From Gemmiger formicilis (GTDB lineage Bacteria > Bacillota > Clostridia > Oscillospirales > Ruminococcaceae), in the NCBI RefSeq assembly GCF_900167555.1, contig NZ_FUYF01000001.1:124001-188000 (forward strand): a DNA stretch of 64,000 bases, in the 5' to 3' direction. The notes beneath the pieces were generated by a model that saw nothing but the letters and a program-made list of their open reading frames with translations, was not told where the DNA came from and searched no databases. The position numbers and the translations under genes are program-made. Positions 5,733 to 23,363 of this stretch are shown in pieces (the stretch's first letter is position 1; every line of letters begins with the position of its first letter).

Positions 5733-6620
5733 ATGGCACTGTCGCTGTGCAGAACGACCGTGGACGATTCGGCGCGGGAGCTGATGGAGCATGGCACCGC
5801 CGCCTTCCCCATCGCCTGTTATCACGACGATTTGCAGGCCGAGCCCGTGCCGTGGCACTGGCACGAGGAATTGGAGGTACTGGTCGTCAGCGAGGGCATG
5901 ATCTTGGCGACGGCAGGCGGCGAGAAATTCCGCTTGGAAAAGGGCGAGGGGCTGTTCATCAACGCAGGGGTGCTGCACGGCGACTGGCCGCTGAATGCGG
6001 GCAGCTGCCGCCTGCACAGCATGGTGTTCCACCCACGGCTGGTGGGCGGCAACCCGGACAGTGTGTTCTGGCAGAAATATCTGCAGCCGCTGCTGACCGA
6101 CCCCAGCCGTCCCTGCGCCGTGCTGCGCCCCACGGTGGACTGGCAGCACGAGGCCATCGAGGACATGGAGCGGGCGTTCCGCGCGGTGGTGAACGAAATC
6201 CCCGGCTACGAGTTCAAGACCCGCGCGGCGCTGTCGGAGATGATCTTCCAGCTGGTCAGCCACGCTCCGGCGGTGCAGGCCATGCCGAAAAAGGCACTGC
6301 GCAACGCCGACCGCATCAAGACGATGCTGCAATTTATCCAAGAGCATTACGCCGAGGACATCTCGGTCGAACAGGTCGCGTCCAGTGCGTCCATCAGCCC
6401 CAGCGAGTGTCTGCGGTGCTTCCACGATATGATCGGCACGACACCGAATCAGTATCTGCGCGACCAACGCGCCCAGCGCGCGGCGGAGCTGCTGTGCGGC
6501 ACGGGACTGCGGGTGACGGAAATCGCGATGCAGTGCGGTTTTCAGGACGCGAGCTACTTTGCCCGCGCCTTCCGTCAGGTCTACGGCTGCGGCCCGACGG
6601 AGTATCGCAGAAAAGCATGA
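5733..6620 (+). CDS. AraC-family transcriptional regulator with cupin sensor
   Basis: 295 aa. The N-terminal cupin-type sensor domain (about residues 20-150) includes PWHWHEELEVLVV and GEGLFINAGVLHG. The C-terminal double helix-turn-helix domain (about 195-293) carries IKTMLQFIQEHYAEDISV, then TEIAMQCGFQDASYFARAF and ends GCGPTEYRRK, the classic AraC signature. GGAGG lies 11 bp before the ATG. Its divergent partner is an MFS transporter, suggesting it senses the transported compound; ligand unknown. Confidence 0.93.
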   Translation: MALSLCRTTVDDSARELMEHGTAAFPIACYHDDLQAEPVPWHWHEELEVLVVSEGMILATAGGEKFRLEKGEGLFINAGVLHGDWPLNAGSCRLHSMVFHPRLVGGNPDSVFWQKYLQPLLTDPSRPCAVLRPTVDWQHEAIEDMERAFRAVVNEIPGYEFKTRAALSEMIFQLVSHAPAVQAMPKKALRNADRIKTMLQFIQEHYAEDISVEQVASSASISPSECLRCFHDMIGTTPNQYLRDQRAQRAAELLCGTGLRVTEIAMQCGFQDASYFARAFRQVYGCGPTEYRRKA

Positions 6621-6633
6621 AGGGAAAAATAAA

Positions 6634-6665
6634 ACTACCGCCGTCAGTTCCCTGACGGCGGTAGT
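6634..6665. terminator. Shared terminator of the AraC-type gene and thrS
   Basis: 14-bp perfect inverted repeat ACTACCGCCGTCAG / CTGACGGCGGTAGT with a 4-nt loop, flanked by A-rich and T-rich runs, between converging genes. Confidence 0.82.
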
Positions 6666-6678
6666 TATTTTATCGGGA

Positions 6679-8469
6679 TTAACCGTTATTCTTGCGGGTC
6701 TTGATTTCGTCCACGACCTGGTTGATGAAAGCATCCAGATCCATCGTGGTGGTCTCGCCCTTGCGGTCACGGACGCTGATGTTGTTGGACTCGACCTCTT
6801 TTGCGCCCAGAACCAGCATATAGGGCACGCGGTCAACCTGCTGGGCCTGGCGGATCTTGTAGCCGATCTTCTCGTTGGACTCATCCAGCACAACGCGGAC
6901 ACCGGCGGCCTGCAGCTTGGCGGTGACGTCCTTCGCGTAGTCCAGCGTCTTTTCGCTGACGGGCAGGACCTTGACCTGCGTCGGGGCCAGCCAGGTCGGG
7001 AAACGGCCCTTCGTCTCCTCGATCAGGTAAGCCATGAAGCGGTCCAGAGAGCCAAGGATCGCGCGATGCAGCACGACGGGGGTCTTTTCGCTGCCGTCCT
7101 TGTCCACGTAGGTCAGGTGGAACTTGGCGGGCAGGCAGAAGTCCAGCTGGCAGGTGGACAGCGTGTACTCGGCGCCGACGGCGGGCTTGACGTTGACGTC
7201 CAGCTTCGGGCCGTAGAAGGCAGCCTCGCCGATCTCCTCGGTGAAGTGGATGCCCAGCTCGGTCAGAACCTCGCGCAGGGCGTTCTCGGCATGGTTCCAC
7301 ATGGCGTCGTCGTCATGGTACTTCTTCTTGTCGGCGGGGTCGCGCAGGGACAGCACGCAGCGATAATCCGTGATGTTGAAGTCCTTGTAGACGTCGAAAA
7401 TCAGCGCGCAGACGTTGGCAACTTCGCTCTTGATCTGCTCGGGCGTGCAGAACAGGTGCGCGTCGTTCTGGCAGAAGTGGCGGCCACGCTCGATGCCCTT
7501 CAGTGTGCCGGAGGACTCATAGCGGAAGTCGTGGGCAATCTCGCCGATGCGGATGGGCAGCTGACGATAGCTGTGGGGCTGGTTGGCGTAGATCATCATG
7601 TGGTGGGGGCAGTTCATCGGGCGCAGGACGTAGCTCTCGCCCTCCATCTCCATAGCGGGGAACATGTTCTCGCGGTAGTGGTCCCAGTGGCCGGAGGTCT
7701 TGTACAGGTTCACGGTGCCGATGCAGGGGGTCATGACGTGCAGGTAGCCGCGCTCACGCTCCTTGCCCTTGATGTAATCCTCCAGCTGCTGCCAGACGGT
7801 GTAGCCGTTGGGCAGGAACATCGGCAGGCCGCGGCCGACGAGGTCGTCGGTCATGAACAGGCGCATCTCCTTGCCGATCTTGCGGTGGTCGCGCTCACGG
7901 GCCTCCTGCTGCTGCTTCTCCCAGGCGTCCAGCTCCTCCTGATTGCGGAAAGCCACGCCGTTGATGCGGGTCAGCATCTTGTTCTCTTTGTCGTTCTTCC
8001 AGTAAGCGCCGGACTGCTGGGTGATCTTGAACGCCTTCAGCGCCTTGGTGTAGCACAGGTGGGGTCCGATGCACATATCGACGTACTCGCCCTGCTGGTA
8101 GAAGCTGAACTCGGTCTCGTCGGCCAGGTCGGCGATATGCTCGATCTTGTAGTGCTCCTGACGCTCCTCCATCAGCTTGACAGCCTCGTCACGGGGCAGG
8201 ATGAACGGCTTGATGGGAAGATTCTCCTTGCAGATCTTCTTCATCTCTTTTTCGATGGCGGCCAGGTCCTCGTCGGTCAGCTTGGTGTCGCCGAGGTCGA
8301 CGTCATAGTAGAAGCCGTTCTCGGTGGCAGGGCCGAAGGCAAAGTCCGCCTGCGGGTAGAGGCGCTTGATGGCCTGCGCCATGATATGGGCAGCCGTGTG
8401 GCGCAGAACGTGCAGTTCTTCCTCCTGCGGGCACTCGGCGACGGTACCGTCCTTGTAGATGATCTTCAT
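6679..8469 (-). CDS. thrS: Threonyl-tRNA synthetase, lacking most of the TGS domain
   Basis: Charges tRNA(Thr) with threonine. The ATG at 8469 is preceded by AAAGGAGCG at good spacing, giving 596 aa. The editing domain starts almost at once: its zinc-like HxxxH (HTAAH) is at residues 24-28, whereas E. coli ThrRS has it at 73-77, so the N-terminal TGS domain is reduced to one strand-like segment (MKIIYKDGTV). The class II catalytic core is intact: motif 2 RYESSGTLKGIERGRHF, NCPHHM, and motif 3 LHRAILGSLDRFMAYLIEE, followed by the anticodon-binding domain. Expression is controlled by an upstream T-box. Confidence 0.96.
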   Translation of the reverse strand: MKIIYKDGTVAECPQEEELHVLRHTAAHIMAQAIKRLYPQADFAFGPATENGFYYDVDLGDTKLTDEDLAAIEKEMKKICKENLPIKPFILPRDEAVKLMEERQEHYKIEHIADLADETEFSFYQQGEYVDMCIGPHLCYTKALKAFKITQQSGAYWKNDKENKMLTRINGVAFRNQEELDAWEKQQQEARERDHRKIGKEMRLFMTDDLVGRGLPMFLPNGYTVWQQLEDYIKGKERERGYLHVMTPCIGTVNLYKTSGHWDHYRENMFPAMEMEGESYVLRPMNCPHHMMIYANQPHSYRQLPIRIGEIAHDFRYESSGTLKGIERGRHFCQNDAHLFCTPEQIKSEVANVCALIFDVYKDFNITDYRCVLSLRDPADKKKYHDDDAMWNHAENALREVLTELGIHFTEEIGEAAFYGPKLDVNVKPAVGAEYTLSTCQLDFCLPAKFHLTYVDKDGSEKTPVVLHRAILGSLDRFMAYLIEETKGRFPTWLAPTQVKVLPVSEKTLDYAKDVTAKLQAAGVRVVLDESNEKIGYKIRQAQQVDRVPYMLVLGAKEVESNNISVRDRKGETTTMDLDAFINQVVDEIKTRKNNG

Positions 8470-8504
8470 AATTGTACGCTCCTTTTGCAATTGCACAAAA
8501 ATGC

Positions 8505-8785
8505 AAATAAAAAATGCTCCATCCCTCGCTTACAAAAGGGATGAAGCATATAGCTCCACGGTTCCACCCAAATTGCGCTTATGTCTTATATAAAAGGTAA
8601 GCGCCGCTCGTACCGGCTGTAACGGGCCGTACCCGGCGGAGGTTCGCCCCCGCGCTCGGCAGTGGTAAGGCTGCGGGCCGCTGCAAAACCGCTTGCACCA
8701 CGCGGCGTACCGCGGCGGTTCTCTCTTGTGCAGGACCTCGCATCCCGTTTGTCTGCCTCATGGCTTTGTACAGGATGAAGTTAAG
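8505..8785 (-). promoter_or_regulatory. T-box riboswitch leader of thrS
   Basis: On the minus strand the leader holds several stem-forming segments, then the T-box core TGGGTGGAACCG (8559-8570), and finally a terminator hairpin ATGCTCCATCCCT / AGGGATGAAGCAT (8514-8549, one mismatch) followed by a T-rich run, just ahead of the thrS ribosome-binding site. This is the arrangement of transcription-attenuating T-boxes, in which uncharged tRNA (here by context tRNA-Thr) stabilises the antiterminator. I could not place the specifier codon with certainty. Confidence 0.93.
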
Positions 8786-8788
8786 TTA

Positions 8789-8817
8789 TTTATAGCACAA
8801 GTGCGGCTTTAAGTCAA
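8789..8817 (-). promoter_or_regulatory. Promoter of the T-box/thrS transcript
   Basis: On the minus strand TTGACT (8812-8817), 17-bp spacer, TATAAA (8789-8794), directly upstream of the T-box leader. Confidence 0.8.
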
Positions 8818-8843
8818 GTAGAAAAATTTGGAATATTGAGGTT

Positions 8844-8929
8844 GTAGGGGCCGCACATGTGCGGCCCACAACGTAAAGGCAAGCAGGTGTCTGTCGTAAA
8901 GCTGCGGGCCGGGCATGCCCGGCCCCTAC
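8844..8929. repeat. Family C composite palindromic element (copy 3, complete)
   Basis: GTAGGGGCCGCACATGTGCG then GCCC, about 45-bp linker, GCGGGCC GGGCATGCCC GGCCCCTAC. Left and right palindromes differ in sequence but both are self-complementary, and the outer GTAGGGG / CCCCTAC ends are inverted. Confidence 0.75.
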
Positions 8930-9012
8930 ATTTATACCTCCGCCAGTTTGCACAAAAAACTTTCCACTCCCCTGCTCTGCCCATGTAAAACGCCGAAGTT
9001 ATTAAATATACA

Positions 9013-9041
9013 TTGACTTTACATATTTATGCAGTTATACT
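9013..9041 (+). promoter_or_regulatory. Promoter of the amino-acid ABC transporter operon
   Basis: TTGACT (9013-9018), 17-bp spacer, TATACT (9036-9041), leaving a leader of about 65 nt before the binding-protein gene. Confidence 0.78.
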
Positions 9042-9111
9042 GTATACATCAACCAAGTGAGGGCTTGGGAAGGTACAAACATTTGAGATATATTGAATCG
9101 AGGAGATCATC

Positions 9112-11893: not shown

Positions 11894-12772
11894 ATGGCTG
11901 AAAATCTGCAAACCACCCGCCCGGCTGACGAGGGCTGGACTACGGTCATCCGGCCCAAGACCGGCTGGTTCGACATCGACCTGCAGGAGCTCTGGCGCTA
12001 TCGCGACTTAATTATAATGTTCGTCAAGCGCAACTTTACTGTGCTGTACAAGCAGACGATCCTGGGCCCTGCGTGGATCATTCTGAACCCGCTCATCACC
12101 ACCGTGATTTTCAACGTTGTGTTCGGCGGCATGGCCAACATGCCCACCGACGGCGTGCCCGGCTTTTTGTTCTACATGGCCGGCAATACGGTGTGGACCT
12201 TCTTTGCCAACTGCGTCAACAATACAGCCAATACGTTTGTGACAAACTCACAGATTTTTGGCAAGGTGTACTTCCCGCGCCTGACGATGCCGGTCAGCCA
12301 GGTGCTGACAAGCCTCATCAACTTCGGCATTCAGGCGGTCATGTACCTGATCTTCTGGGTGTACTTCTTTGCCACGGGCAGCGGCGTCACCTTTACGCTG
12401 TGGGTGCTGGCTGTGCCGTTCGTCGTGCTGGAGGTCATGCTGCTGGGCCTCGGCGTCGGCATCATCGTGTCGTCCTTAACGACGAAGTACCGCGATCTGG
12501 CGATTGCCGTCGGCTTCGGCGTGCAGCTCTGGATGTACGCCTCCCCCGTCGTCTATCCGCTGTCGATGCTGGACAACTCCCCGCGCCTGCGGGTGCTCGT
12601 TCAGCTCAACCCTATGACGTCGCCGATCGAGATTTTCCGCATGGCTACCTTGGGCACCGGCACGGTCACGACGTTCGGCATCGTGTACAGCCTGATTTTT
12701 ACCGCTGCGGCGCTGGTTTTGGGCGTTGTGCTGTTCAGCCGCATTGAAAAGACCTTCATGGATACCGTGTAA
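11894..12772 (+). CDS. Polysaccharide ABC exporter, permease (Wzm/TagG type)
   Basis: 292 aa ABC-2 type membrane subunit. After a soluble N-terminus there are about six helices with the family hallmarks YRDLIIMFVKRNFTVLYKQT, LGPAWIILNPLITTVIF and, near the C-terminus, MYASPVVYPLSML and LNPMTSPIEIFR. It exports an undecaprenyl-linked glycan with the ATPase encoded 17 bp downstream. First gene of an operon of glycan synthesis genes. Confidence 0.92.
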   Translation: MAENLQTTRPADEGWTTVIRPKTGWFDIDLQELWRYRDLIIMFVKRNFTVLYKQTILGPAWIILNPLITTVIFNVVFGGMANMPTDGVPGFLFYMAGNTVWTFFANCVNNTANTFVTNSQIFGKVYFPRLTMPVSQVLTSLINFGIQAVMYLIFWVYFFATGSGVTFTLWVLAVPFVVLEVMLLGLGVGIIVSSLTTKYRDLAIAVGFGVQLWMYASPVVYPLSMLDNSPRLRVLVQLNPMTSPIEIFRMATLGTGTVTTFGIVYSLIFTAAALVLGVVLFSRIEKTFMDTV

Positions 12773-12789
12773 GAAAGGGGCGCGTAACT

Positions 12790-14067
12790 ATGTCTGCAAA
12801 TGAAAAACGCCCTGTCATCGAGGTCACGGGGCTGAAAAAACAATACAAGCTCGGCCAGATCGGCGGCGGCACGCTGACCCACGACCTGCAAAGCTGGTGG
12901 GCCCGTGTGCGCGGCAAGGAGGACCCGAACACCGTCATCGGCACCGACCAGCGGCTGTTCGGCCAGACGTTTATGGCGTTGAACGGCGTTGACCTGACCG
13001 TCTATCAGGGTGAGGCACTGGGCATCATTGGCCGCAACGGCGCGGGCAAATCCACGCTGCTCAAGCTGCTCTCCCGCATCACCGCCCCCACCGAGGGCGA
13101 AATCAAGATCCGTGGCCGCGTGGCCTCGATGCTCGAGGTCGGCACCGGCTTCAACAACGAGATGACGGGCCGCGAGAACATTTATATGAACGGCGCGATT
13201 CTGGGCATGACCCGCGCCGAGATCGACGCAAAGCTGCCGCAGATCATTGAATTTTCCGAGTGCGGCGACTTCATCGACACACCTGTCAAGCGCTATTCCA
13301 GCGGCATGTTCGTCAAGCTGGCCTTCGCCGTGGCCGCGCATCTCGACAGCGAGATCATGGTCATGGATGAAGTTCTGGCCGTCGGCGATATGAAATTCCA
13401 GCAGAAATGCTTAGGGAAAATGAGCGACGTCGCCAATCAGGACGGGCGCACGGTGCTGTATGTCAGCCATAATATGTCGACCATTCGTCAGCTTTGCACC
13501 CGCTGCGTCGTGCTGGACAAGGGCAGGGTCATCTTTGACGGCGACGTGGAGCAGGCCATCGCGGTCTACATGGACACCACCGACGTCAACGTTGTCCACT
13601 ACGACCTGGCCGACGTCGCCCGCATGACGGGCAGCGCGGGCAAGCGGTTCCGGCTGGAAACGCTGGATTTCGTCGGCAAGGAGTCGAGCGTGTTTGCCGA
13701 TACCGAAAAGATGCGGGTGAAAATCACCTGGCGCGTTTCGGAGCCGTTCGCAGGCATCCACATGAAGATGAACCTCCACGCGCGGGATTCGACGCCCGTC
13801 GGCATCACCCATCCCGTCGACCTCGGCCCCGCCGAGCCGGGCAAAATCTACACCTCTGTGTTTGAATTTGACCCGAGTCTGCTGGGCGAGGGACAGTATT
13901 TCTTCTATCTCGACATTTTTGACGGCGCGCTGGCCCACGCGGTCTGCCTGGACAAGCCCGTGACCGAGTTCGCCTTTGAGGTGACGAACAGCGACCTGAC
14001 GATGCCCGAGTGGGCGTCCGGCTGGGGCCGCATCCACTTCCCGCCCGTCAAGCTCGTGCAGGAGTAA
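12790..14067 (+). CDS. Polysaccharide ABC exporter, ATPase with C-terminal carbohydrate-recognition domain (Wzt type)
   Basis: 425 aa. The ATPase domain (residues 1 to about 250) has Walker A GRNGAGKSTLLKLLSRI, signature YSSGMFVKLAFAVAA and Walker B EIMVMDEVLAVGD. The remaining 165 residues form a beta-rich domain like the Wzt C-terminal domain (EPFAGIHMKMNLHARDSTPV, FEFDPSLLGEGQYFFYLDIFD), which in Wzt proteins reads the capped end of the glycan before export. That suggests a terminally modified polymer, in line with the ulosonic-acid genes downstream. AAAGGGG precedes the start. Confidence 0.92.
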   Translation: MSANEKRPVIEVTGLKKQYKLGQIGGGTLTHDLQSWWARVRGKEDPNTVIGTDQRLFGQTFMALNGVDLTVYQGEALGIIGRNGAGKSTLLKLLSRITAPTEGEIKIRGRVASMLEVGTGFNNEMTGRENIYMNGAILGMTRAEIDAKLPQIIEFSECGDFIDTPVKRYSSGMFVKLAFAVAAHLDSEIMVMDEVLAVGDMKFQQKCLGKMSDVANQDGRTVLYVSHNMSTIRQLCTRCVVLDKGRVIFDGDVEQAIAVYMDTTDVNVVHYDLADVARMTGSAGKRFRLETLDFVGKESSVFADTEKMRVKITWRVSEPFAGIHMKMNLHARDSTPVGITHPVDLGPAEPGKIYTSVFEFDPSLLGEGQYFFYLDIFDGALAHAVCLDKPVTEFAFEVTNSDLTMPEWASGWGRIHFPPVKLVQE

Positions 14068-14070
14068 CGC

Positions 14071-15039
14071 ATGAAACCGAATTTGTACATTTGCCACACC
14101 GCGTATCAGGTCTTGGTCGATCTGCTGCGGGCCGGGCGCTGCGCCGGCAAGCCCCACACGATGGTGCTCTCCGCCTCCGTGCCCGACACCGCCGCGCTGG
14201 CGGCACGTCTGGACGCGACGGGCGTGGTCAAGACTGTCCTTGTGGACGAGACGCGCTGGCCCGGGACCGTGACGGGGCTGTTTGCCCACCGGCGCGCGGC
14301 CCGCGCCTTTGAGAAGCTGTGCGGCTGGAAATTGAACCGTGCAGCGTTTGGAAATGTCTATATCCACAACGATTGGAGTGTGCTGGGCCGCTATTTGCAG
14401 GATTGCCGCGCCGGGTATATTCTGTGCGAGGACACGTTCGGCAGCACGCTCGGCCCTGACCAGCATCTTGTGACCGACCAGCGCACCGCAGCGGATTTTG
14501 CCGCGAAGCAGCGCGGAAAAGGCTACCTGTACTGGGGCGACAGCCCGTGGTGCGTCCGCGTCGAGAGTGAGGATGCCGCGCGGTGTACGCTGTTTTCGGC
14601 GGACCGCATGGCGACGGACAGCAAGGCCAAACTGTTAGAGAGCCTGACCGACGACGAAAAAGCGATGGTGCGCCGCGTATTTTTGACGCAGCCCCTGCCC
14701 GAGAAGGCAGACGGCGCGACGCTTTTGCTGCCCCGCAGCTTTGTGGCCGACGGGCTGATGACCCAAGCGGAGCAGGACGCGATGTTCAAAGCGGTGGCGG
14801 AAAAATACGCCGTTGGGCCGCTCTTTATCAAGACCCACCCGCGGGACACGACGGATTACGCCGCCCTGTTCCCCGATGCAGTCATTTTGGAGCGCACGAT
14901 GCCCAGCGAGGTGCTGAACTTCTGCCTCCCCTTCCATTTCGCCCGTGCCGTCACCGTGCAGAGCTTCGTCCTGCGCGGCTTCACCGCGGCGGGTGAGAAG
15001 ATCCTGCTGACGCTGGAGGAGGCGAGGAAACTGGTCTGA
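14071..15039 (+). CDS. Sialyltransferase-like glycosyltransferase (GT52-like)
   Basis: 322 aa, three bases after the Wzt-type gene. It opens with NLYICHTAYQVLVDLL, as bacterial lipooligosaccharide sialyltransferases (GT52) and related CMP-sugar transferases do. The acidic motif LCEDTFGS and the histidine motif FIKTHPRD match the D/E-D/E-G and HP motifs of the GT-B sialyl/polysialyltransferases. With a CMP-transferase encoded two genes later, a CMP-ulosonic acid donor is the natural inference. The acceptor is unknown and the family assignment is from motifs only. Confidence 0.68.
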   Translation: MKPNLYICHTAYQVLVDLLRAGRCAGKPHTMVLSASVPDTAALAARLDATGVVKTVLVDETRWPGTVTGLFAHRRAARAFEKLCGWKLNRAAFGNVYIHNDWSVLGRYLQDCRAGYILCEDTFGSTLGPDQHLVTDQRTAADFAAKQRGKGYLYWGDSPWCVRVESEDAARCTLFSADRMATDSKAKLLESLTDDEKAMVRRVFLTQPLPEKADGATLLLPRSFVADGLMTQAEQDAMFKAVAEKYAVGPLFIKTHPRDTTDYAALFPDAVILERTMPSEVLNFCLPFHFARAVTVQSFVLRGFTAAGEKILLTLEEARKLV

Positions 15040-15066
15040 TGCGCGGGGAAAACGGCATCCGGCCGG

Positions 15067-15170
15067 GAGGTTCTCTCCCTCCGGCGCTTCGCGCCACCTC
15101 CCTCGCAGAGGGAGGTCCTTTAGCCCCCTCTGCGAGGGGGCTCCGCCCGCAGGCGGTGGGGGAGAGAACC
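15067..15170. repeat. Family B repeat with inverted ends (complete copy)
   Basis: 11-bp perfect terminal inverted repeat GGTTCTCTCCC ... GGGAGAGAACC enclosing two hairpins: CCTCCCTCGCAGAGGGAGG and GCCCCCTCTGCGAGGGGGC. A half copy of the same element is at 31086-31134. It sits directly upstream of the DUF559 gene. Confidence 0.75.
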
Positions 15171-15204
15171 TTCCGCAGCCACAATGTAAAAAGGAAAAGC
15201 CACT

Positions 15205-15558
15205 ATGCTCTACTATGACAAAAAGAATGTCCCGTTGGCGCGGCAGCTCCGCAAGAATATGACACCGTGGGAAAATAAGCTGTGGTATCAGTTTCTCCGC
15301 ACCTTCACCCCGCGCTTCCAGCGCCAAAAGCCCATCGGCGGCTATATCGCTGATTTCTACTGCGCAAAAACAAGGCTTGTCATCGAGCTGGACGGGGCAC
15401 AGCATTACACGCCCGAGCAACAGCAGACCGACAGTCTGCGCACAGAGTTTTTCGCACAGAACCATATCAGGGTTCTGCGGTTCACCAATTTGGACATAGA
15501 CCGCCGCTTTGACGGCGTATGCCAAACGATAGAGGCGGCTGTTCAGGCCGCCGTGTAA
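15205..15558 (+). CDS. DUF559 domain protein, PD-(D/E)XK endonuclease-like
   Basis: 117 aa. Recognisable DUF559 core: LRKNMTPWENKLWYQFLR, FQRQKPIGGYIADFYC and LVIELDGAQHY, i.e. the D...ExD catalytic arrangement of the Vsr-like restriction-endonuclease fold, ending LRFTNLDIDRR. The family is widespread and its cellular role is unsettled. It interrupts an otherwise continuous glycan operon and is preceded by a complete family B repeat, which suggests that it arrived as a mobile or hitch-hiking unit. The start follows AAAGGAAAAGCCACT. Confidence 0.88.
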   Translation: MLYYDKKNVPLARQLRKNMTPWENKLWYQFLRTFTPRFQRQKPIGGYIADFYCAKTRLVIELDGAQHYTPEQQQTDSLRTEFFAQNHIRVLRFTNLDIDRRFDGVCQTIEAAVQAAV

Positions 15559-15571
15559 GCGAGGTACACTC

Positions 15572-16306
15572 ATGAAAACAATCGCTGTGATCCCGGCGCG
15601 TTACGCCAGTACCCGGATGCCGGGCAAGCCGCTGGCCGATGTGCTGGGCAAACCGATGATCTACTGGGTCTACAGGGCCGCCAGGGCCTGCCCGAAGCTG
15701 GACGATGTGCTCATCGCCACCGACGACGAGCGCATTGCCGACGCCTGCAAAACCTACGATATGCGGTATATTATGACCAGCCCCGACCACGACACCCCCA
15801 CCGGGCGCATCTGGGAGGTCAGCACCGTCGAGGACGCCGACCTCTACCTGCAGCTCATGGGCGACGAGCCGCTGGTCAACCCCGCGGCGTTCGACCTGAT
15901 CCTGCCTGAAACGCTGCCCGATGACCCCTATTACGTCGCGGTGCTGACGAACGTTATGGAGCACCCCGCCGACGTTATCGACTTCTCGAACCAAAAGGTC
16001 GTGACGAACGCCGCACGGGAGATTTTGCTGATTTCCCGCAGCCCCATCCCCTACCCCAAAGGCACGCTGGATTTCGAGTACGAGAAGGTCACCGGCATTC
16101 AGCTGTACAGCAAGCAGGCACTGAAATTCTACCATGATACGCCGAAATCCATCCTTGAAAAGGCCGAGGAAAACGACATGATGCGCTTTATCGAGAATGG
16201 CCACAAGGTACACGCCATCGTCAGCCCGTACAAGACGGTCAGCGTGGACACGCCGAAGGATCTGGCGCTGGTCAATGAAATTTTGAAGGAGAAGCAGCAT
16301 GGCTGA
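15572..16306 (+). CDS. CMP-ulosonate cytidylyltransferase, KdsB-like
   Basis: 244 aa, close to the length of 3-deoxy-manno-octulosonate cytidylyltransferase. The KdsB/NeuA nucleotide-binding start IAVIPARYASTRMPGKPL is intact, as are VLIATDDERI, QLMGDEPLVNP and the C-terminal VSVDTPKDLALV. It should activate a keto-sugar acid with CTP. The usual partner KdsA (PEP condensing) is not nearby; the next two genes encode an aldolase and a KdsC-like phosphatase. The substrate may therefore not be KDO. Its last 8 bp overlap the aldolase gene. Confidence 0.88.
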   Translation: MKTIAVIPARYASTRMPGKPLADVLGKPMIYWVYRAARACPKLDDVLIATDDERIADACKTYDMRYIMTSPDHDTPTGRIWEVSTVEDADLYLQLMGDEPLVNPAAFDLILPETLPDDPYYVAVLTNVMEHPADVIDFSNQKVVTNAAREILLISRSPIPYPKGTLDFEYEKVTGIQLYSKQALKFYHDTPKSILEKAEENDMMRFIENGHKVHAIVSPYKTVSVDTPKDLALVNEILKEKQHG

Positions 16307-17858
16307 TATTAAACTGCTGGACTGCACCCTGCGCGACGGCGGCTATGTGAACAACTGGCAGTGGGGCTTCGGCTCGGCACGCCGCATCATCCAGACGCTG
16401 ACCCGCGCGGGCGTGGACGTCGTCGAGGTCGGCTTTCTGCGCAATGTGGACGGCTACGACCCCGACGTGACGGTCTGCAACACGATTGAGGAGCTGAACC
16501 GTCTGCTGCCCGACGAGGGCCAGCGCGGCCACACGATGTACTCCGGCATGGCGATGCGCTCCAACTACGACATTGCCAAGCTGTCCCCCTACGACGGCCA
16601 CGGCATTGAAATCATCCGTATCACCGCCCATGATTACGACATTAAGGACGGCATGGACTTTGCCCGCCGTATCAAAGAATTGGGCTACAAGGTCTCCATC
16701 AATCCCATCAACATCATGGGCTACAGCGACAAGGACCTGCTCTGGATCTTTGAGCAGGTCAACGAAATTCATCCGTGGCAGTTCTCCATTGTGGATACCT
16801 TCGGCAGCATGCGCCGCCGCGATCTGGAGCGCATCGTCAGCATGGCTGACCATAATTTAGCTCCGGACATCCGCCTGGCGCTGCACCTGCATGAGAACAT
16901 GGCGCTTAGCTTCTGCCTGGCGCAGGAATTTCTCGACAAGCATCTGCGCCGCGACCTGGCTGTGGACGGCAGCCTGATGGGCATGGGCCGCATCCCCGGC
17001 AACCTGCCGATTGAGCTGATCGCCGACTATATGAACGAGTACTTCGGCGGCCACTACAACATTGACGACCTCATGGATGCCATTCAGGACCACATTGCGC
17101 CCATCAAGGGCAACTGCGCGTGGGGCTACACCCCGGCGTACTTCCTGTCGGCCAGGTTCAATCTGCACCGCAACTATGCCGAGCATTACCTTGGCAAGGG
17201 CGATCTGACGAACCGCGACATCAACCATATTCTGGCGGCCATCGCGCCAAACAAAAAGACTGTGTTTGATGCCGCCTACGCCGACACGCTCTACACCGAG
17301 TACAAGAACCGCCGCATCGACGACGCAGGCGCACTGGCCGCCCTGCAGAGGGCCTTTGCGGGCAAGACCGTGCTGGTGCTGGCCCCCGGCGGCAGCCTGG
17401 CTGCCGAGGCTGGCCGTGCCGCTGTAGCAGCCGCGCAGGCCGACGTGACAGTCTCGGCCAACTTTGTGCCGGATTTTGTGACGCCCGACTATGCGTTTTT
17501 CACGAACGCAAAACGCTTTGACGTGGATGCCGCCTACCCCTGCCCGCTGATCCTGACCAGCAACCTGCGCGCCGACAAGGACGCGGCGGTGGTCAACTAT
17601 GACCGGCTGTCCGCCACCGACGCGCAGGGCGGCAACAGCGTGCTGATGCTGCTGCGTCTGCTGCGCCAGTGCGGCGCGGCGCGGGTGCTGCTGGCCGGTG
17701 CCGACGGCTACAGGCCGGGCACTGCCGCCTACGCGGACGAGGGCCTGCACACCCACACCGGGCGCGGCGCGGCCTACAATGCCCAGATGGCGGGGGCCAT
17801 CCGCGCGGCGGGCCTGCCCGTGGAATTCATCACCCCCAGCGAGTACGAGAGGGCCTGA
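16299..17858 (+). CDS. HMG-lyase-type pyruvate aldolase fused to a CST-II/MptE-like domain
   Basis: 519 aa in two parts. Residues 1 to about 340 form a DRE-TIM aldolase: metal and catalytic motif LLDCTLRDGGYVNNW, HLHEN metal histidines and GMGRIPGNLPIELIADYMNE, related to 4-hydroxy-2-oxovalerate aldolase. Residues about 350-519 form a separate Rossmann-like domain, VLVLAPGGSLAAEAGR ... SANFVPDFVTPDYAFFTN, whose G-x-S-L start recalls the GNGPSL motif of CST-II sialyltransferases and of MptE/DUF115 proteins. Sandwiched between KdsB-like and KdsC-like genes, it probably builds or processes a keto-sugar acid from pyruvate and an aldehyde; the exact reaction is inference. Confidence 0.8.
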   Translation: MADIKLLDCTLRDGGYVNNWQWGFGSARRIIQTLTRAGVDVVEVGFLRNVDGYDPDVTVCNTIEELNRLLPDEGQRGHTMYSGMAMRSNYDIAKLSPYDGHGIEIIRITAHDYDIKDGMDFARRIKELGYKVSINPINIMGYSDKDLLWIFEQVNEIHPWQFSIVDTFGSMRRRDLERIVSMADHNLAPDIRLALHLHENMALSFCLAQEFLDKHLRRDLAVDGSLMGMGRIPGNLPIELIADYMNEYFGGHYNIDDLMDAIQDHIAPIKGNCAWGYTPAYFLSARFNLHRNYAEHYLGKGDLTNRDINHILAAIAPNKKTVFDAAYADTLYTEYKNRRIDDAGALAALQRAFAGKTVLVLAPGGSLAAEAGRAAVAAAQADVTVSANFVPDFVTPDYAFFTNAKRFDVDAAYPCPLILTSNLRADKDAAVVNYDRLSATDAQGGNSVLMLLRLLRQCGAARVLLAGADGYRPGTAAYADEGLHTHTGRGAAYNAQMAGAIRAAGLPVEFITPSEYERA

Positions 17859-17860
17859 CG

Positions 17861-18367
17861 ATGATACGACTGCTGGTGCTGGACGTGGACGGCACGATGA
17901 CCGACGGCGGCGTCTACTACGACGCCACCGGCAATGAGCTGAAGAAATTTGCCATCAAGGACGGCGCCGGGCTGGTGCTGGCGCGCACGGCGGGCATCCG
18001 CGTGATGATCTGCACCGGGCGCGAGTGCGAGGCCGTGCGCCGCCGCGCCGCAGATTTGAAAATCACCGACATCTACCAGAATGTTGGCAAAAAAGCCGCG
18101 TTCCTGCGGGATTTCATGGCTGAAAACGGCTACGCGCGGGACGATGTCGCCTACTGTGGCGACGACCTGAACGATCTGGCGGCCATGGCGCTGTGTGGCT
18201 TTGTGGCCTGCCCGGCGGATGCCGCGCCGGAGGTGCGGGCGCGTGCCGACTATATCTGCCCCCAGCGCGGCGGCGAGGGTGCCGTCCGCGGAGCGGTGGA
18301 GAAGATCCTGCGCGGGGACGGACGCTGGAACGACGCTGTGAAAAAGGCGTTTCAGGTGGAATTGTAA
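17861..18367 (+). CDS. KdsC-like HAD phosphatase
   Basis: 168 aa, the length of KDO-8-phosphate phosphatase and of the phosphatase half of bacterial NeuA fusions. HAD motifs are present: LLVLDVDGTMTDGGVYY (motif I), MICTGRECEAVRRRAADL (motif II region), VGKKAAFLRDF (motif III Lys) and VAYCGDDLNDLAAM (motif IV). The VYYD after motif I is typical of the KdsC group. It starts 2 bp after the aldolase stop and should remove the phosphate from the ulosonate 8- or 9-phosphate before CMP activation. Confidence 0.9.
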   Translation: MIRLLVLDVDGTMTDGGVYYDATGNELKKFAIKDGAGLVLARTAGIRVMICTGRECEAVRRRAADLKITDIYQNVGKKAAFLRDFMAENGYARDDVAYCGDDLNDLAAMALCGFVACPADAAPEVRARADYICPQRGGEGAVRGAVEKILRGDGRWNDAVKKAFQVEL

Positions 18368-18387
18368 CGCTAAACTTGCGGGCGGCT

Positions 18388-18441
18388 GTAGGGGTCGATG
18401 CTTGCATCGACCCGCGGGCGGATGCGGGCATCCGCCCCTAC
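18388..18441. repeat. Family C composite palindromic element (copy 6, compact)
   Basis: GTAGGGGTCGATGCTTGCAT then CGACCC, no linker, then GCGGGCGGATGCGGGCATCCGCCCCTAC. It lies inside the glycan operon, between the phosphatase and DUF2142 genes. Confidence 0.72.
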
Positions 18442-18462
18442 GGCCTAACGGAAGGAGATTTC

Positions 18463-21000
18463 ATGAAAAACAAAAAACATACCCCCTTGCTGGCGGCACT
18501 GGCAACGCTTGTCGTGCTGCTGGCGGGCGTGGTGCTGATCTGGCTGGCGAAGGTCCGGCCCGATGTGGGCAAGGGCCGCAGTGAGATCGTCACCGACTTC
18601 CTGCGGGCCGAGCTTTTGCAGGACGGCCAGACCGCAACGCAGGTCTTTACCTACGACAAGGATATTTTGACGATAGGTCTTGAATTTTACCTGCCGGGTG
18701 ACCAGCCCTGCGGTGCGCTGGATGTTGTGCTCTACGACGCCGACACCGGCGAGGAGTTGTCCCGCTCCGTCGGTACGATGGACTACATCGTGCCCGACCA
18801 GTACACGACCCTGGGGATGGACCCCGCCGTGACCGGGCAGGAGGGCCGCCGTTACAAGTTGGCCGTCACGCCGCATTACGCGACGGACGCGATTTTGGCC
18901 ATCGGCCACAGCGACGGTGTCGCGCTCTGGAAGGAGCAGATGGCCGTGGATGACCGTGTGATCGACGGCACGATGGCGATGCAGATCACCTACCAGCGCA
19001 TCGGCGGCTACCTGACGCGGTTCTTCCTGCTTGTGGGCGGGCTGGCCGCCGTGCTGGCCGCGCTGGCCGTGTGGGCGGTGCTTAGCAAAAAACTGGCACT
19101 GCACCGTCTTGTTTTTGTGCTGGTGCTCGGCTTTGGACTGCTGTACAGCTTTGTGCTGCCGCCTTATGCTGCGCCCGACGAGAAATACCACATCAACCAG
19201 AGCTTTACGCTGGCCTGCCGCTGGGCCAACGACCTGTCCCACGACGAGTGGCGGATGGGTAAGGTGCCCACGACGACGAGCTTCCGCCGCGTCGGTGACG
19301 AGGACGCCGACCTGCAAAACGAGAACACGACGGTCTTTACGTGGGAGGCGTTCACCTCCCAGCTGTTCACCACCACAGACCAGCCCTTTGACAGCCATCA
19401 GGAATATAATGAATTGCAGACCGACCAGAACCCGCTTCTGTACGTCGTCAGTGCGGCGGCGGTATTTCTGGCCTATGTGCTGCATTTTGGCTTTGCGCCC
19501 GCGCTGTTTTTGGGGCGGCTTGCAAATCTGCTGCTCTTTGCGGCGCTGGCGGCGCTGGCGGTCAAGACCGCGCCGTTCGGCAAGCGGGTCTTTACCGTGG
19601 CCGCGCTGCTGCCCATGACGCTGCACCTGGCGGCCAGCTTCAGCCGGGACGCGCCGCTGCTGGGGCTGTGCTTTGTGTTCACGGCGCTGCTGATGGACGC
19701 GGCGTTCGGCCCGAATCAGAAAAAGGCACTCTCCCCCGCCCGGCTGACGGCGCTGCTGTTCTGCGGCGTGCTGCTGGCCCCGGGCAAACTCGTCTATCTG
19801 CCGCTGGCGGCACTGCTGCTGCTGGTGCCCGCCGCGCGGTTGGGGCACCACGCCAGGGCAAAGAAGTGCGCCTATCTGGCCGCCTGTCTGGCGCTGGCGC
19901 TGCTGCTGAATACGGGCCTTCTGACCGATACGCTGCGCAGCGGGCAGACCGCGGTGCAGACCACGGCGGCGGAGGACGCAGGCCGCGTGGTCAAGAGCCG
20001 CCCCGCAGAGTCGGACGAAGCCTACGAGGCCGAGATCTGCGGCGAGAGTACGCTGGAAAACTACGTCAAGCGGCTGTATTATTACGTGGACGACAACCGC
20101 AGCCCCGCGGCCCGCGAGGTCGCATTCTGGGTGCAGGCCATGCAGGAGGGCGACGTCAGCCCGGCAGTGCTGGGGCAGAGTTTCCTCTTTTCGCCCGACA
20201 GGGCCAACAGCTACACCGACGGCCAGGCATTTTACACGATGGCCTCCTATGCGCTGCTGGGCACCGACGTGACCGACGGCAACGCGGACGCCTACCTGCC
20301 CTATTTTGCCGAGGGCGGCGCGGTGCAGGCCTACAAGCAACTGTTCAACCTGACCAGCTGTGTCGAGAGCTTCGCCGCGCTGGGTGTGGACGTCGGCACG
20401 ATGGATGACCGCATCCCGCTGGACCGCACGGTGCTGGCGCAGGAGGTCGAGGCCGCCCGCGCGACCCGCAGCACCCAGAGCACGGCGGACGAGGCCGACA
20501 AAGCCACCTACACGCCGGGCTACATCCTGCGCCATCCCGTGGACACGGTGCTGCTGTTTGTGCGCAGCGCCGTGGAAAACGGCGACCATTACATCCGCAC
20601 GCTGGTGGGCGGCAGCCTGAGCTACTACACCGTTGATCTGGCCTGGGGCTGGGTCGCGGTGCTGTACCTGCTGCTGGCCTACGCGGCGCTGCCCGTGCAG
20701 GGCGCGGTGATGAAGCCCGCCGGTAAGGCGCGCGGCTGGTGCTGCGCGGCGGCGGCGCTCTGCTGCCTGCTGGCCGTGGCCGGGTGCCTCTTGTGGACAC
20801 CCACCCATTACGACACGCTGTACGGCCTGCAGGGGCGGTACTTCCTGCCCGTGCTGCCGCTGCTTCTGCTGACCTGCCTGCCCCGCCGTCTGGCCGCCGT
20901 GCCCGACGAGGACACCGCCCAGACCCGCCTTGTGGCCGCGCTTGCACTGGTACAGGCGGGGATGGTCGTGAATATTATGCTGGCGATTATTGCAAGGTGA
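18463..21000 (+). CDS. DUF2142-type multi-pass membrane protein
   Basis: 845 aa from the ATG preceded by GGAAGGAG; the same frame stays open further upstream through the family C repeat but has no ribosome site there. One N-terminal helix (LLAALATLVVLLAGVVLIWL), a soluble external domain to about residue 190, then ten or so helices with a hydrophilic insert at about 500-690. The stretch LPPYAAPDEKYHINQSF matches the P-x-D-E-x-x-H motif of DUF2142 and related GT-C-like proteins that add sugars at the outer membrane face. Placement among glycan genes supports a polyprenyl-phosphate-sugar-dependent transferase. Confidence 0.82.
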   Translation: MKNKKHTPLLAALATLVVLLAGVVLIWLAKVRPDVGKGRSEIVTDFLRAELLQDGQTATQVFTYDKDILTIGLEFYLPGDQPCGALDVVLYDADTGEELSRSVGTMDYIVPDQYTTLGMDPAVTGQEGRRYKLAVTPHYATDAILAIGHSDGVALWKEQMAVDDRVIDGTMAMQITYQRIGGYLTRFFLLVGGLAAVLAALAVWAVLSKKLALHRLVFVLVLGFGLLYSFVLPPYAAPDEKYHINQSFTLACRWANDLSHDEWRMGKVPTTTSFRRVGDEDADLQNENTTVFTWEAFTSQLFTTTDQPFDSHQEYNELQTDQNPLLYVVSAAAVFLAYVLHFGFAPALFLGRLANLLLFAALAALAVKTAPFGKRVFTVAALLPMTLHLAASFSRDAPLLGLCFVFTALLMDAAFGPNQKKALSPARLTALLFCGVLLAPGKLVYLPLAALLLLVPAARLGHHARAKKCAYLAACLALALLLNTGLLTDTLRSGQTAVQTTAAEDAGRVVKSRPAESDEAYEAEICGESTLENYVKRLYYYVDDNRSPAAREVAFWVQAMQEGDVSPAVLGQSFLFSPDRANSYTDGQAFYTMASYALLGTDVTDGNADAYLPYFAEGGAVQAYKQLFNLTSCVESFAALGVDVGTMDDRIPLDRTVLAQEVEAARATRSTQSTADEADKATYTPGYILRHPVDTVLLFVRSAVENGDHYIRTLVGGSLSYYTVDLAWGWVAVLYLLLAYAALPVQGAVMKPAGKARGWCCAAAALCCLLAVAGCLLWTPTHYDTLYGLQGRYFLPVLPLLLLTCLPRRLAAVPDEDTAQTRLVAALALVQAGMVVNIMLAIIAR

Positions 21001-21010
21001 CTGCTTTGCA

Positions 21011-21134
21011 AATAAAAAATAAGAAATAATAAATTTGGTGGACCGCGCCGCGGGACGGCGCTCAAAATTTTGTTTTCGCCTTCAGGCGAAAACACCACAT
21101 TATTTATTATTTATTATTTATTATCTATTATTTT
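21011..21134. repeat. Family D AT-ended MITE-like element (copy 1, uninterrupted)
   Basis: AT-rich ends AATAAGAAATAATAAAT ... ATTTATTATTTATTATT surround a GC-rich core including CAAAATTTTGTTTTCGCC and the hairpin TTTTCGCCTTCAGGCGAAAA. The same element in opposite orientation, interrupted by a family C insertion, is at 35560-35759. It separates the DUF2142 and GT4 genes. Confidence 0.7.
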
Positions 21135-21150
21135 GAAAAGGCCAACTATA

Positions 21151-22281
21151 ATGGTTATCTGTTTCTTCTCAACGCAATACCTCCCCACCCCCGGCGGGGT
21201 CGAGCGGTATACCTGGAATCTGGCGCGGCGGTGTGTGGCGGCAGGGCATCGCGCCCTTGTCGTCACGGCATCGCTGCCGGGCCTGCCCGCGCGGGAGCGT
21301 GATGCCGACGGCATCGAAATCTACCGTCTGCCGTCCTGGCCTGTCATGGGCGGGCGGTTCCCCGTGTTAAAGCCCCTTGCCGATGCAGACGACCTCTGGG
21401 CACAGGGCATCGACTTTGCGGTCATCCAGACCCGGATGTACACGCAAAGCGTCTGGGCCGCACGGCAGTGTAAACGGCGCGGCATCCCGGCGCTGGTCAT
21501 CGACCACTCCACCGGCTATATGCTGCACGGCGGGCTGGCCGGGGCGCTGGGCAAGGCGTATGAGCACGCGGCCTGCGGCAGCATCCGCCGCTGCGGGTTC
21601 CCGTTCTACGGTGTCTCCGGGGATGTCTGCCGCTGGCTGGAAACGTTCGGCATCCAGGCGGCGGGCCGACTGCCCAACGCCGTGGACCCTGCCGAGCTGG
21701 AACGGCTGGCCCACGCAGACAACGCGGTTGACTGGCGCCGGAGGCTAAACGTGCCCGCGGACGGCAGGCTCGTTGCCTTTGCCGGGCGGCTCATCCCGGA
21801 GAAGGGGGCGCTGCGGCTGGCTCAGGCTGTGCAGGACATTCCGGGCTGTACGCTGGCCGTGGCGGGCACCGGCCCCGAGGAGGCCGCTCTGGCCGCGCTG
21901 GGCGGCGGTATCCATGCGCTGGGGGCGCTGCCGCATGAGCAGATCGTCCAGCTGCTGACACAGGCGGACGCCTACTGTCTGCCCACCGAGTACGCCGAGG
22001 GCTTCCCCACGACGCTGCTCGAGGCGGCGGCCTGCCGCTGCCCCATCGTGACGACCCGCACGGCGGGCACCGACGAGCTGCTGCCCGGGGACGACTACGC
22101 GGTGTTTTTGGCAAACGCTGCGCCCGAGACCATCCGCGCAGGGCTGGAAACGCTGCTGGCGGACCCCGCTGCGGCCCGCACCCGCGCCGAAAACGCCCGC
22201 CAAAACCTTTGCAGCCACTTTACATGGCAGGCTGTCTTTGCTACAATGATGGAAGCCGTAACGTCTGCCAAAAGGAGCTAA
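21151..22281 (+). CDS. Glycosyltransferase family 4
   Basis: 376 aa from the ATG that follows GAAAAGG; an earlier in-frame ATG lies within the family D repeat and is not credible. GT-B fold: N-terminal FSTQYLPTPGGVERYTWNLA, and the C-terminal donor-binding domain with VAFAGRLIPEKGALRLAQA, VAGTGPEEAALAAL and LPTEYAEGFPTTLLEAAAC (the E-x7-E motif). A retaining transferase using a nucleotide sugar; the sugar is not readable. Followed 1 bp later by the GT2 gene. Confidence 0.92.
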   Translation: MVICFFSTQYLPTPGGVERYTWNLARRCVAAGHRALVVTASLPGLPARERDADGIEIYRLPSWPVMGGRFPVLKPLADADDLWAQGIDFAVIQTRMYTQSVWAARQCKRRGIPALVIDHSTGYMLHGGLAGALGKAYEHAACGSIRRCGFPFYGVSGDVCRWLETFGIQAAGRLPNAVDPAELERLAHADNAVDWRRRLNVPADGRLVAFAGRLIPEKGALRLAQAVQDIPGCTLAVAGTGPEEAALAALGGGIHALGALPHEQIVQLLTQADAYCLPTEYAEGFPTTLLEAAACRCPIVTTRTAGTDELLPGDDYAVFLANAAPETIRAGLETLLADPAAARTRAENARQNLCSHFTWQAVFATMMEAVTSAKRS

Positions 22282-22282
22282 G

Positions 22283-23002
22283 ATGTCAAAATTACTCATC
22301 GTCATCCCCGCGCACAACGAGGAAGCCAACATCGTGCAGGTCGTCGAGGAGCTGACCCGCAGTTATCCACAGTATGATTACGTGGTCGTCAACGACGGCA
22401 GCCGCGACAAAACCGCGGCGCTTTGCCGTGCCCACGGCTATCGGCTCATTGACCTGCCGGTCAACCTGGGGCTGGCGGGCGCGTTCCAGACCGGGCTGCG
22501 CTTTGCCGCGGAGAACGGCTACGACTGCGCCATGCAGATGGACGCCGACGGTCAGCACAAGCCGGAGTATATCGCCCCGATGCTGGCCGCGCTGGAGGAG
22601 GGCAACGACATTGTCATCGGCAGCCGCTTCCTGACCGTGAAGAAGCCCAAGACGCTGCGGATGCTGGGCAGCTACATCATCAGCTGGTCTATCCGCCTGA
22701 CGACGGGCCGCGCCATCTGCGACCCGACCAGCGGCATGCGGATGTTCAACCGCGCCATGGTCGAGGAGTTTGCCCAGAACCTGAACTACGGCCCCGAGCC
22801 CGACACGATCAGCTACCTGATCAAAAACGGCGCGACGGTCAAGGAGGTGCAGGTCGAAATGGGCGAACGTCTGGCGGGCCAGAGCTACCTGACCTTCTGG
22901 CGCAGCGTGCAGTATATGGTCAAAATGTCCATCTCGATTCTGTTGATCCAGTGGTTCCGCAAGCGCGACACCGAGACGCCCTACCCCGAAAGGAGCCTGT
23001 GA
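22283..23002 (+). CDS. Glycosyltransferase family 2, polyprenyl-phosphate sugar synthase-like
   Basis: 239 aa GT-A enzyme with LLIVIPAHNEEANIVQVV, VVNDGSRDKTAAL, the metal-binding QMDADGQHKP and SGMRMFNRAM. The size and the QMDADGQH motif place it with the DPM1/GtrB-like synthases that load a sugar on undecaprenyl phosphate. Together with the DUF2142 and DUF2304 genes it could form a lipid-sugar synthase and membrane transferase module. 1-bp spacings to both neighbours imply coupling. Confidence 0.92.
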   Translation: MSKLLIVIPAHNEEANIVQVVEELTRSYPQYDYVVVNDGSRDKTAALCRAHGYRLIDLPVNLGLAGAFQTGLRFAAENGYDCAMQMDADGQHKPEYIAPMLAALEEGNDIVIGSRFLTVKKPKTLRMLGSYIISWSIRLTTGRAICDPTSGMRMFNRAMVEEFAQNLNYGPEPDTISYLIKNGATVKEVQVEMGERLAGQSYLTFWRSVQYMVKMSISILLIQWFRKRDTETPYPERSL

Positions 23003-23003
23003 A

Positions 23004-23363
23004 ATGTTCGATCAAACACTGATTCGTGTCTGCCTGATCCTGGGCAGCTTCATCACGGCGGGGTACATCCTGCGGCGCGTGCGGCACGCAAAGGTCCAGA
23101 TCGAGGATACGATCTTCTGGCTGATGTTCAGTGCGGCGCTGCTGATCCTGGCCATCTTCCCCGGCATCGCCTATTGGGCCGCAAACCTGCTGGGCTTCAT
23201 GAGTCCCATCAACTTTGTCTATGTTGTCATCATCTTTTTGCTGCTGGCCAAGCAGTTCTTTATGTCCATCAAATTGAGCCAGCTCGACAGCAAGGTCCGT
23301 ATCCTGACCGAGCAGGTCGCCCTGAACGAGGAAAAGGCGGAGCGGGATAAGCTGGACCTGTGA
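23004..23363 (+). CDS. DUF2304 small membrane protein
   Basis: 119 aa with three hydrophobic segments (LILGSFITAGYILRR, FWLMFSAALLILAIFPGIAYW, INFVYVVIIFLLLAKQFF) and a charged C-terminal coiled-coil-like tail (LDSKVRILTEQVALNEEKAE). This is the DUF2304 pattern, which usually follows a GT2 polyprenyl-sugar synthase gene, as here. Probably a membrane partner of that enzyme. Last gene of the operon. Confidence 0.9.
   Translation: MFDQTLIRVCLILGSFITAGYILRRVRHAKVQIEDTIFWLMFSAALLILAIFPGIAYWAANLLGFMSPINFVYVVIIFLLLAKQFFMSIKLSQLDSKVRILTEQVALNEEKAERDKLDL

Follow-up and report, generated by a model that had tools for sequence, protein, structure and literature searches.

The 64,000-nucleotide stretch of the Gemmiger formicilis genome analysed here (contig NZ_FUYF01000001.1, positions 124,001 to 188,000; referred to as the window) comes from an assembly of 3.24 Mb in 92 contigs. 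Genes for a GT52-like transferase, a KdsB/KpsU-type cytidylyltransferase, a two-domain aldolase and a KdsC-type phosphatase lie on its + strand at 14071-18367, downstream of a Wzm/Wzt-type exporter (Table 1). This order, proposed in a preliminary description of the same DNA, is borne out by profile matches and by matches to structurally solved relatives. In the operon proposed there, a DUF559 open reading frame (ORF) breaks the set between the GT52-like gene and kdsB. The transferase scores over the cut-off of PF07922, as its description as sialyltransferase-like would have it, but the match covers only part of the protein. The kdsB and aldolase genes overlap by 8 bases, and 2 bases separate the aldolase stop codon from the kdsC ATG. 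We consider it fairly probable that the cytidylyltransferase, aldolase and phosphatase make a cytidine monophosphate (CMP)-activated 3-deoxy-2-ulosonic acid other than 3-deoxy-D-manno-octulosonic acid (Kdo), and that they do so without a phosphoenolpyruvate (PEP)-dependent synthase.

Structure models and fold searches divide the aldolase into a DRE-TIM domain (residues ~1-300) and a C-terminal domain (~341-519). The "aldolase fusion" of the preliminary description is indeed a two-domain protein, but what it joins is an aldolase domain and a C-terminal domain that falls in no Pfam family. Structure prediction, suggested there as a check, returned the DRE-TIM fold, and the R, D and HxH are in place; R12, D13, H196 and H198 are conserved. 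The solved relatives of the aldolase by sequence include 3dxi (E 4.6e-20), which is BVU_2661 of Bacteroides vulgatus and is titled the N-terminal domain of a putative aldolase, and DmpG (1nvm, E 2.7e-9), and the fold matches include DmpG, HMG-CoA lyase and the isopropylmalate, homocitrate and methylthioalkylmalate synthases. By sequence as well as by fold, the nearest solved relatives of known function are DmpG-type aldolases, which use pyruvate. The window protein shares the DRE-TIM fold and the R/D plus HxH metal site with the DmpG/BphI 4-hydroxy-2-oxovalerate aldolases and with 3dxi. In contrast to DmpG/BphI, however, it stays below the family profiles (TIGR03217, 54.1 of 286; PRK08195.1, 64.2 of 229), has no matched partner dehydrogenase, carries another C-terminal domain and has a tyrosine at the place of the catalytic histidine, which we take to be His21 of DmpG.

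The C-terminal domain has a sialyltransferase/MptE-like fold in the models and fold searches, which recovered the fold of the GT42 and GT29 sialyltransferases, MAF and archaeal MptE (HPPK). Only the fold search was informative: the window member matches no Pfam family and other members only scattered weak ones (best E 0.022), no PDB entry was matched by sequence, profile comparison with neighbouring MptE-like genes was weak (hhalign probability 47), and profile comparison with GT52- and polysialyltransferase-like families gave no match. With regard to the catalytic histidine of GT42, a comparison at the level of alignment columns found histidine at none of the positions that reach 85% conservation, over 70 rows as well as over 15. 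Since SteA and thiamine pyrophosphokinase share the fold of the domain too, transferase activity is doubtful. Stand-alone MptE-like genes also occur near the aldolase in several of the loci compared below (numbered with the prefix L), namely L028, L029, L032, L110, L113, L116, L117 and L126; they were called by PF01973 on L028 and by clustering at the other loci.

The best solved relative of the window cytidylyltransferase is E. coli KpsU (1gq9, E 5.4e-45). The protein passes PRK05450.1-5 (211.3 bits, cut-off 193) but falls short of PRK13368.1 (223.4 bits, cut-off 255) and of TIGR00466, the equivalog for kdsB (122.2 of 155.2). In a survey of the CYTIDYLYLTRANSFERASE over 63 aldolase-linked KdsB-type rows, 25 of which are near Gemmiger copies, R10, R15, K19, D100, R157, R213 and D235 (E. 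coli numbering) are invariant in 63/63. K19 and the two aspartates match by motif the residues for cytidine triphosphate (CTP) and metal given for the Aquifex enzyme in PMC3149649. Only three Kdo references were aligned (E. coli KdsB, KpsU and V. cholerae KdsB), and of the residues invariant in them Gln98 is kept in 12 of the 63 rows, His181 in 18, Tyr185 in 12, Glu210 in 12 and Gln211 in none; the window protein has M, V, Q, D and M at these places. All five presumably contact Kdo. Since residues common to the three Kdo enzymes are lost while the CTP/metal residues are kept, the linked KdsB-type protein appears, as far as alignments can tell, to be a working enzyme for another sugar, and that sugar is probably not Kdo.

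These changes also bear on the possibility that the genes make ordinary Kdo, in which case the aldolase would take the part of KdsA, join pyruvate to arabinose-5-phosphate and leave the later steps to KdsC and KdsB. Profiles and the closest solved structures do place these last two proteins in families of Kdo enzymes: the window phosphatase reaches 139.4 bits on TIGR01670 (cut-off 106.95), and its closest solved relatives are chains of the KdsC/KDN-9-P-phosphatase type, although it stays below the stricter equivalogs (PRK09484.1, 138 of 208; KDN-9-PPhBT, 142.1 of 180). However, the kdsB equivalog is not reached, residues invariant in the three Kdo references are lost, with Gln211 gone from every row, and no KdsD/KpsF arabinose-5-phosphate isomerase was matched over cut-off in the genome (TIGR00393, best 32 bits vs 203.7). 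We therefore regard Kdo itself as a quite improbable product. Compared with the CMP-Kdo pathway (KdsD, KdsA, KdsC, KdsB/KpsU), the window shares the phosphatase and a KdsB/KpsU-type enzyme in which the catalytic residues surveyed are present, but has no KdsA or KdsD over cut-off, an aldolase in the place of KdsA and changes in KdsB at positions that the three Kdo enzymes have in common.

To our knowledge, a synthase that condenses PEP, either KdsA or NeuB, serves the CMP-Kdo and CMP-nonulosonate pathways described so far. The claim that such an enzyme is absent beside the trio holds: no KdsA over cut-off was found in the genome (TIGR01362, 112-114 bits, best 114.3, vs a cut-off of 314), and NeuB lies in another operon. 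The weak KdsA-profile matches look like 3-deoxy-D-arabino-heptulosonate 7-phosphate synthases, and the two weaker NeuB matches (~39.5 bits) coincide with them in position. Among 17 genomes, the hosts of 18 of the 31 related loci described below, only a Bacteroidales-labelled one has a KdsA over cut-off.

The one strong NeuB match (312.6 bits) lies on contig 40, in a separate, apparently legionaminic/sialic-type operon (L079, 145000-163000) with NeuB, NeuA-type and NeuC-like genes; the NeuA-type cytidylyltransferase, NeuC-like epimerase and aminotransferase there are named on our assumption from the translations. It could be argued that the window KdsB activates an ulosonic acid supplied by this operon or by scavenging, and that the aldolase has an unrelated job. 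However, the contig 40 operon has its own NeuA-type gene (PF02348 finds two cytidylyltransferases in the genome, this one and that of the window), so the whole-genome search for KdsA and NeuB revealed no complete route feeding the window enzyme. In addition, distant hosts have the same three genes side by side or overlapping, and at one locus (L125) the aldolase and the KdsC-type phosphatase form one ORF of 766 residues, with a PF02348 gene 84 bases away. An outside supply is thus very improbable. As in the NeuB/NeuA pathways for sialic, legionaminic and pseudaminic acid, a CMP-activated ulosonic acid and a GT52-like transferase would be expected, whereas the window operon has no NeuB and its cytidylyltransferase is of KdsB/KpsU rather than NeuA type. 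With L079 and the trio together, Gemmiger may be a Gram-positive that makes two different ulosonic acids.

The neighbourhood search that the preliminary description had proposed showed that the trio recurs. A scan of one genome per species gave 31 loci with close relatives, in Gemmiger and its kin and in Bacteroidales-, Ruminococcus-, Spirochaetaceae- and Clostridia-labelled records (labels as given in the records, unchecked); the closest named record to the window aldolase was Gemmiger formicilis MCC627, at 95% identity. With the window added, a cytidylyltransferase lies within 1.3 kb in 31 of 32 loci and KdsC within 1 kb in 30 of 32; contig ends truncate L033 and L027, and L034 lacks KdsC within 1 kb. 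Wider aldolase searches matched 50/398 genomes of the phylum (E 0.001), 58/391 of the class (E 1e-10) and 44/247 of the family (E 1e-30). In the phylum of the Bacteroidales-labelled genome 1/296 matched at 1e-30, which was the centre genome itself, and in that of the spirochaete-labelled genome 16/198 matched at 1e-25, centre included; neighbourhoods were fetched for part of the matching genomes.

Among 64 two-domain loci, the window included, a CTP_transf_3 enzyme lies at most 84 bases from the aldolase in 45 and a thiamine diphosphate (ThDP) enzyme at most 3 kb away in 15; one locus has both and three have neither. This count leaves out the 25 near Gemmiger copies, counted apart, and two loci with fewer than 220 aligned aldolase residues that were dropped beforehand (L033, and L136, which lies beside a ThDP gene). 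The marker profiles were built from part of the same loci; in the 32 two-domain loci outside profile making (L180-L211), 24 have the cytidylyltransferase, five the ThDP enzyme, one both and two neither. The cytidylyltransferase lies upstream of the aldolase on the same strand in 46/46 cases (the locus with both included), and all 46 match PF02348, with 37 of KdsB type and nine of a shorter type by purpose-built profiles. As an internal control, none of 19 low-scoring single-domain relatives (<240 bits) has any marker within 6 kb; L150 (Leisingera, 171 bits, with a cytidylyltransferase) was removed from this control by name, its C-terminal part being too divergent for the profile. On a plasmid of Leisingera (Alphaproteobacteria) the aldolase, a "3-deoxy-manno-octulosonate cytidylyltransferase" and a HAD hydrolase stand in a row. 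Chance neighbourhood was rejected as an explanation, because the pairing recurs whereas the 19 low-scoring relatives show no markers. The aldolase-cytidylyltransferase tie is seen in many genomes of the Clostridia class, in a spirochaete-labelled genome and on an alphaproteobacterial plasmid. The earlier statement that the host is Gram-positive is thus right for Gemmiger, though Gram-positives are not the only carriers of the trio.

Several observations weigh against our interpretation of the trio. No KdsC-type phosphatase lies within 1 kb in 21 of the 45 cytidylyltransferase loci; a KdsC- or HAD2-type gene is found within 5.5 kb in 34 of them. The C-terminal domain is also kept at loci where no CMP enzyme was seen, and three of the 64 loci (L124, L194 and L211) lack either partner by profile, L124 having as its next gene a different cytidylyltransferase, PF01467. 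The three two-domain loci from the spirochaete-labelled phylum split into one with a cytidylyltransferase, one with a ThDP enzyme and one with neither (L233, where the adjacent gene encodes a HAD phosphatase); this outcome is mixed, yet compatible. Co-location, moreover, is not proof of a shared pathway. Finally, the place of the DmpG catalytic histidine is Tyr16 in the window aldolase and tyrosine in 66 of 70 cytidylyltransferase-linked rows, and therefore the chemistry may differ. This substitution would suit another donor or acceptor, such as 2-oxobutyrate, oxaloacetate or similar, or a ketone acceptor, in which case the ulosonic acid activated with CMP would be branched or dicarboxylic; the DRE-TIM superfamily, judging from the fold matches, spans several 2-oxo-acid chemistries. 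We consider this unlikely, given that the nearest solved relatives of known function are pyruvate users.

For the window trio we thus favour a route in which the DRE-TIM domain would hold a divalent metal and form the enolate of pyruvate, which would add to the aldehyde of a phosphorylated sugar to give the phosphate of a 4-hydroxy-2-oxo (3-deoxy-2-ulosonic) acid. KdsC would then take off the phosphate, KdsB would link the anomeric hydroxyl to CMP, and a GT52-type transferase, perhaps helped by the C-terminal domain, would add the sugar to a glycan exported by Wzm/Wzt. The genes with their order and recurrence, the conservation of catalytic residues, the model folds and the lack of a KdsA over cut-off are observed; we infer the pyruvate donor, the sugar-phosphate acceptor, the order of the steps and the product. 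The scan of the operon genes (11894-23363) matched no family of isomerases, epimerases or dehydratases, which makes a housekeeping sugar phosphate the likely acceptor, e.g. glyceraldehyde-3-phosphate, erythrose-4-phosphate or a pentose-5-phosphate. The same genes bear on a reading in which the aldolase works in the direction of cleavage and the operon serves sugar-acid catabolism. The solved DmpG-type relatives come, by their structure titles, from aldolase-dehydrogenase complexes, which are catabolic, but the scanned genes gave no match to an aldehyde dehydrogenase family; they encode an exporter and glycosyltransferases, along with membrane proteins and an enzyme that consumes CTP. This gene content leaves a catabolic role scarcely credible. 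The gene module, in which a metal aldolase stands where a PEP-dependent synthase is expected, is real and recurrent, and the route proposed for it is well supported on genomic grounds.

More tentatively, with chances that we put somewhat short of even, one family of pyruvate-type aldolases feeds surface-sugar chemistry at large, and the neighbouring gene sets the fate of its product: CMP-ulosonic acids where a phosphatase is followed by a CTP_transf_3 enzyme of the KdsB or the short type, cytidine diphosphate (CDP)-activated acids through IspD- or PF01467-type enzymes with the phosphate kept, and branched sugars through ThDP enzymes. CMP-ulosonic acids would on this reading arise independently of PEP, and their synthesis would be coupled to the sialyltransferase-fold domain carried by the aldolase itself. 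In four loci (L138, L139, L140 and L215) the aldolase is fused with an IspD domain (136-146 bits), a 2-hydroxyacid-dehydrogenase-type gene lies near, and no KdsC or HAD2 marker was found within 6 kb; a CDP-activated sugar acid is a possible product. Enzymes of the IspD and PF01467 types couple CTP with a phosphate group and would keep that of the aldolase product, whereas KdsB-type enzymes would need it removed, and the distribution of the phosphatase fits this division.

The 15 loci with a ThDP neighbour (L068, L109, L111, L118, L120, L121, L127-L130, L204, L206, L207, L209 and L210) encode acetolactate-synthase-like proteins, all with the three Pfam ThDP-enzyme domains, and an RfbH-like gene lies within 6 kb in seven of them. 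ErwE reportedly uses 4-hydroxy-2-oxo acids, and the aldolases beside ThDP enzymes are likely suppliers of such acids for branched surface sugars; a 2-oxo acid would be the one need common to both contexts. What links the window to the YerE/ErwE-type ThDP enzymes of branched surface sugars is that its aldolase family lies beside ThDP enzymes in these 15 loci; the window operon itself has no ThDP gene, and its product is predicted to be CMP-activated. The gene contexts cluster on a quick aldolase tree (105 of 122 rows, several long branches), which was used only for this purpose. Thirteen high-scoring single-domain loci have a cytidylyltransferase (two), a ThDP enzyme (two), both (one), an IspD fusion (four), a transketolase (two) or a 2-hydroxyacid dehydrogenase (two). 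Among such loci from the spirochaete-labelled phylum, L235 has a ThDP enzyme, and L236, at a contig end, has neither partner and a HAD phosphatase as its next gene. Eleven low-scoring loci of that phylum include no cytidylyltransferase, and nine of them lack every marker; ThDP and transketolase genes occur at L241, and a 2-hydroxyacid dehydrogenase at L239.

We propose the route as a new form of CMP-ulosonic acid synthesis. The open-licence literature searched (including PMC3149649, PMC3989065, PMC12247030 and PMC4202792) gave no description of an aldolase in such a route, and a published aldolase in the erwiniose cluster is possible. If the aldolase takes the synthase step, genomes without KdsA or NeuB could still make CMP-ulosonic acids, and annotation that seeks these synthases would miss them. 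Gut Gram-positives would then bear unrecognised acidic surface sugars, and the synthesis of rare sugar acids would gain a metal aldolase with new aldehyde acceptors. The trio, which hints that surface sugars resembling Kdo or sialic acid are made in a second way, has few genes and lends itself to tests with purified enzymes.

Table 1. Genes of the window operon and its surroundings
Feature	Position	Strand	Support and remarks
Wzm-type ABC-2 permease, glycan exporter	11894..12772	+	PF01061 60.3 bits; kept upstream of the trio in relatives
Wzt-type ATPase, weak Wzt_C-like end	12790..14067	+	PF00005 78 bits; PF14524 26.2 bits, below cut-off 30.4
GT52-like (sialyltransferase-family) transferase	14071..15039	+	PF07922 34.1 bits, cut-off 26.1; partial, residues 199-284 only
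DUF559 ORF, not thought a pathway member	15205..15558	+	PF04480 100 bits
KdsB/KpsU-type cytidylyltransferase, altered sugar pocket	15572..16306	+	PF02348 132 bits; residue survey
Two-domain aldolase, 519 residues	16299..17858	+	PF00682 59.6 bits; structure models and fold searches
KdsC-type HAD phosphatase	17861..18367	+	TIGR01670 over cut-off
DUF2142 membrane protein	18463..21000	+	PF09913 120.7 bits; start provisional, first ATG of the conserved part; kept downstream in Gemmiger relatives
GT4 glycosyltransferase (start provisional)	21070..22281	+	PF00534 87.7 bits
GT2 glycosyltransferase	22283..23002	+	PF00535 98.5 bits
DUF2304 small membrane protein	23004..23363	+	PF10066 95.8 bits

Other aldolase loci show further partners. 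In L137 a 1072-residue ORF (5870-9085) combines the aldolase with a GT2-like domain, and ThDP-, transketolase- and RfbH-like genes adjoin it. A protein of ~670 residues recurs in six loci (L112, L114, L115, L119, L122 and L123; e.g. L115:1460-3472), and in four of them a polysialyltransferase-like gene is present too; the L115 member, the one searched, has no Pfam match at 1e-4. In the window, the DUF559 ORF looks like a local insertion, because tblastn of relatives printed no match longer than 60 residues. A dispersed repeat lies 5' of it at 15066-15180; neither the repeat nor the ORF was seen between the GT52-like gene and kdsB in the relatives compared. The repeat has 84 matches in its own genome, many of them partial, and also matches its own reverse strand.

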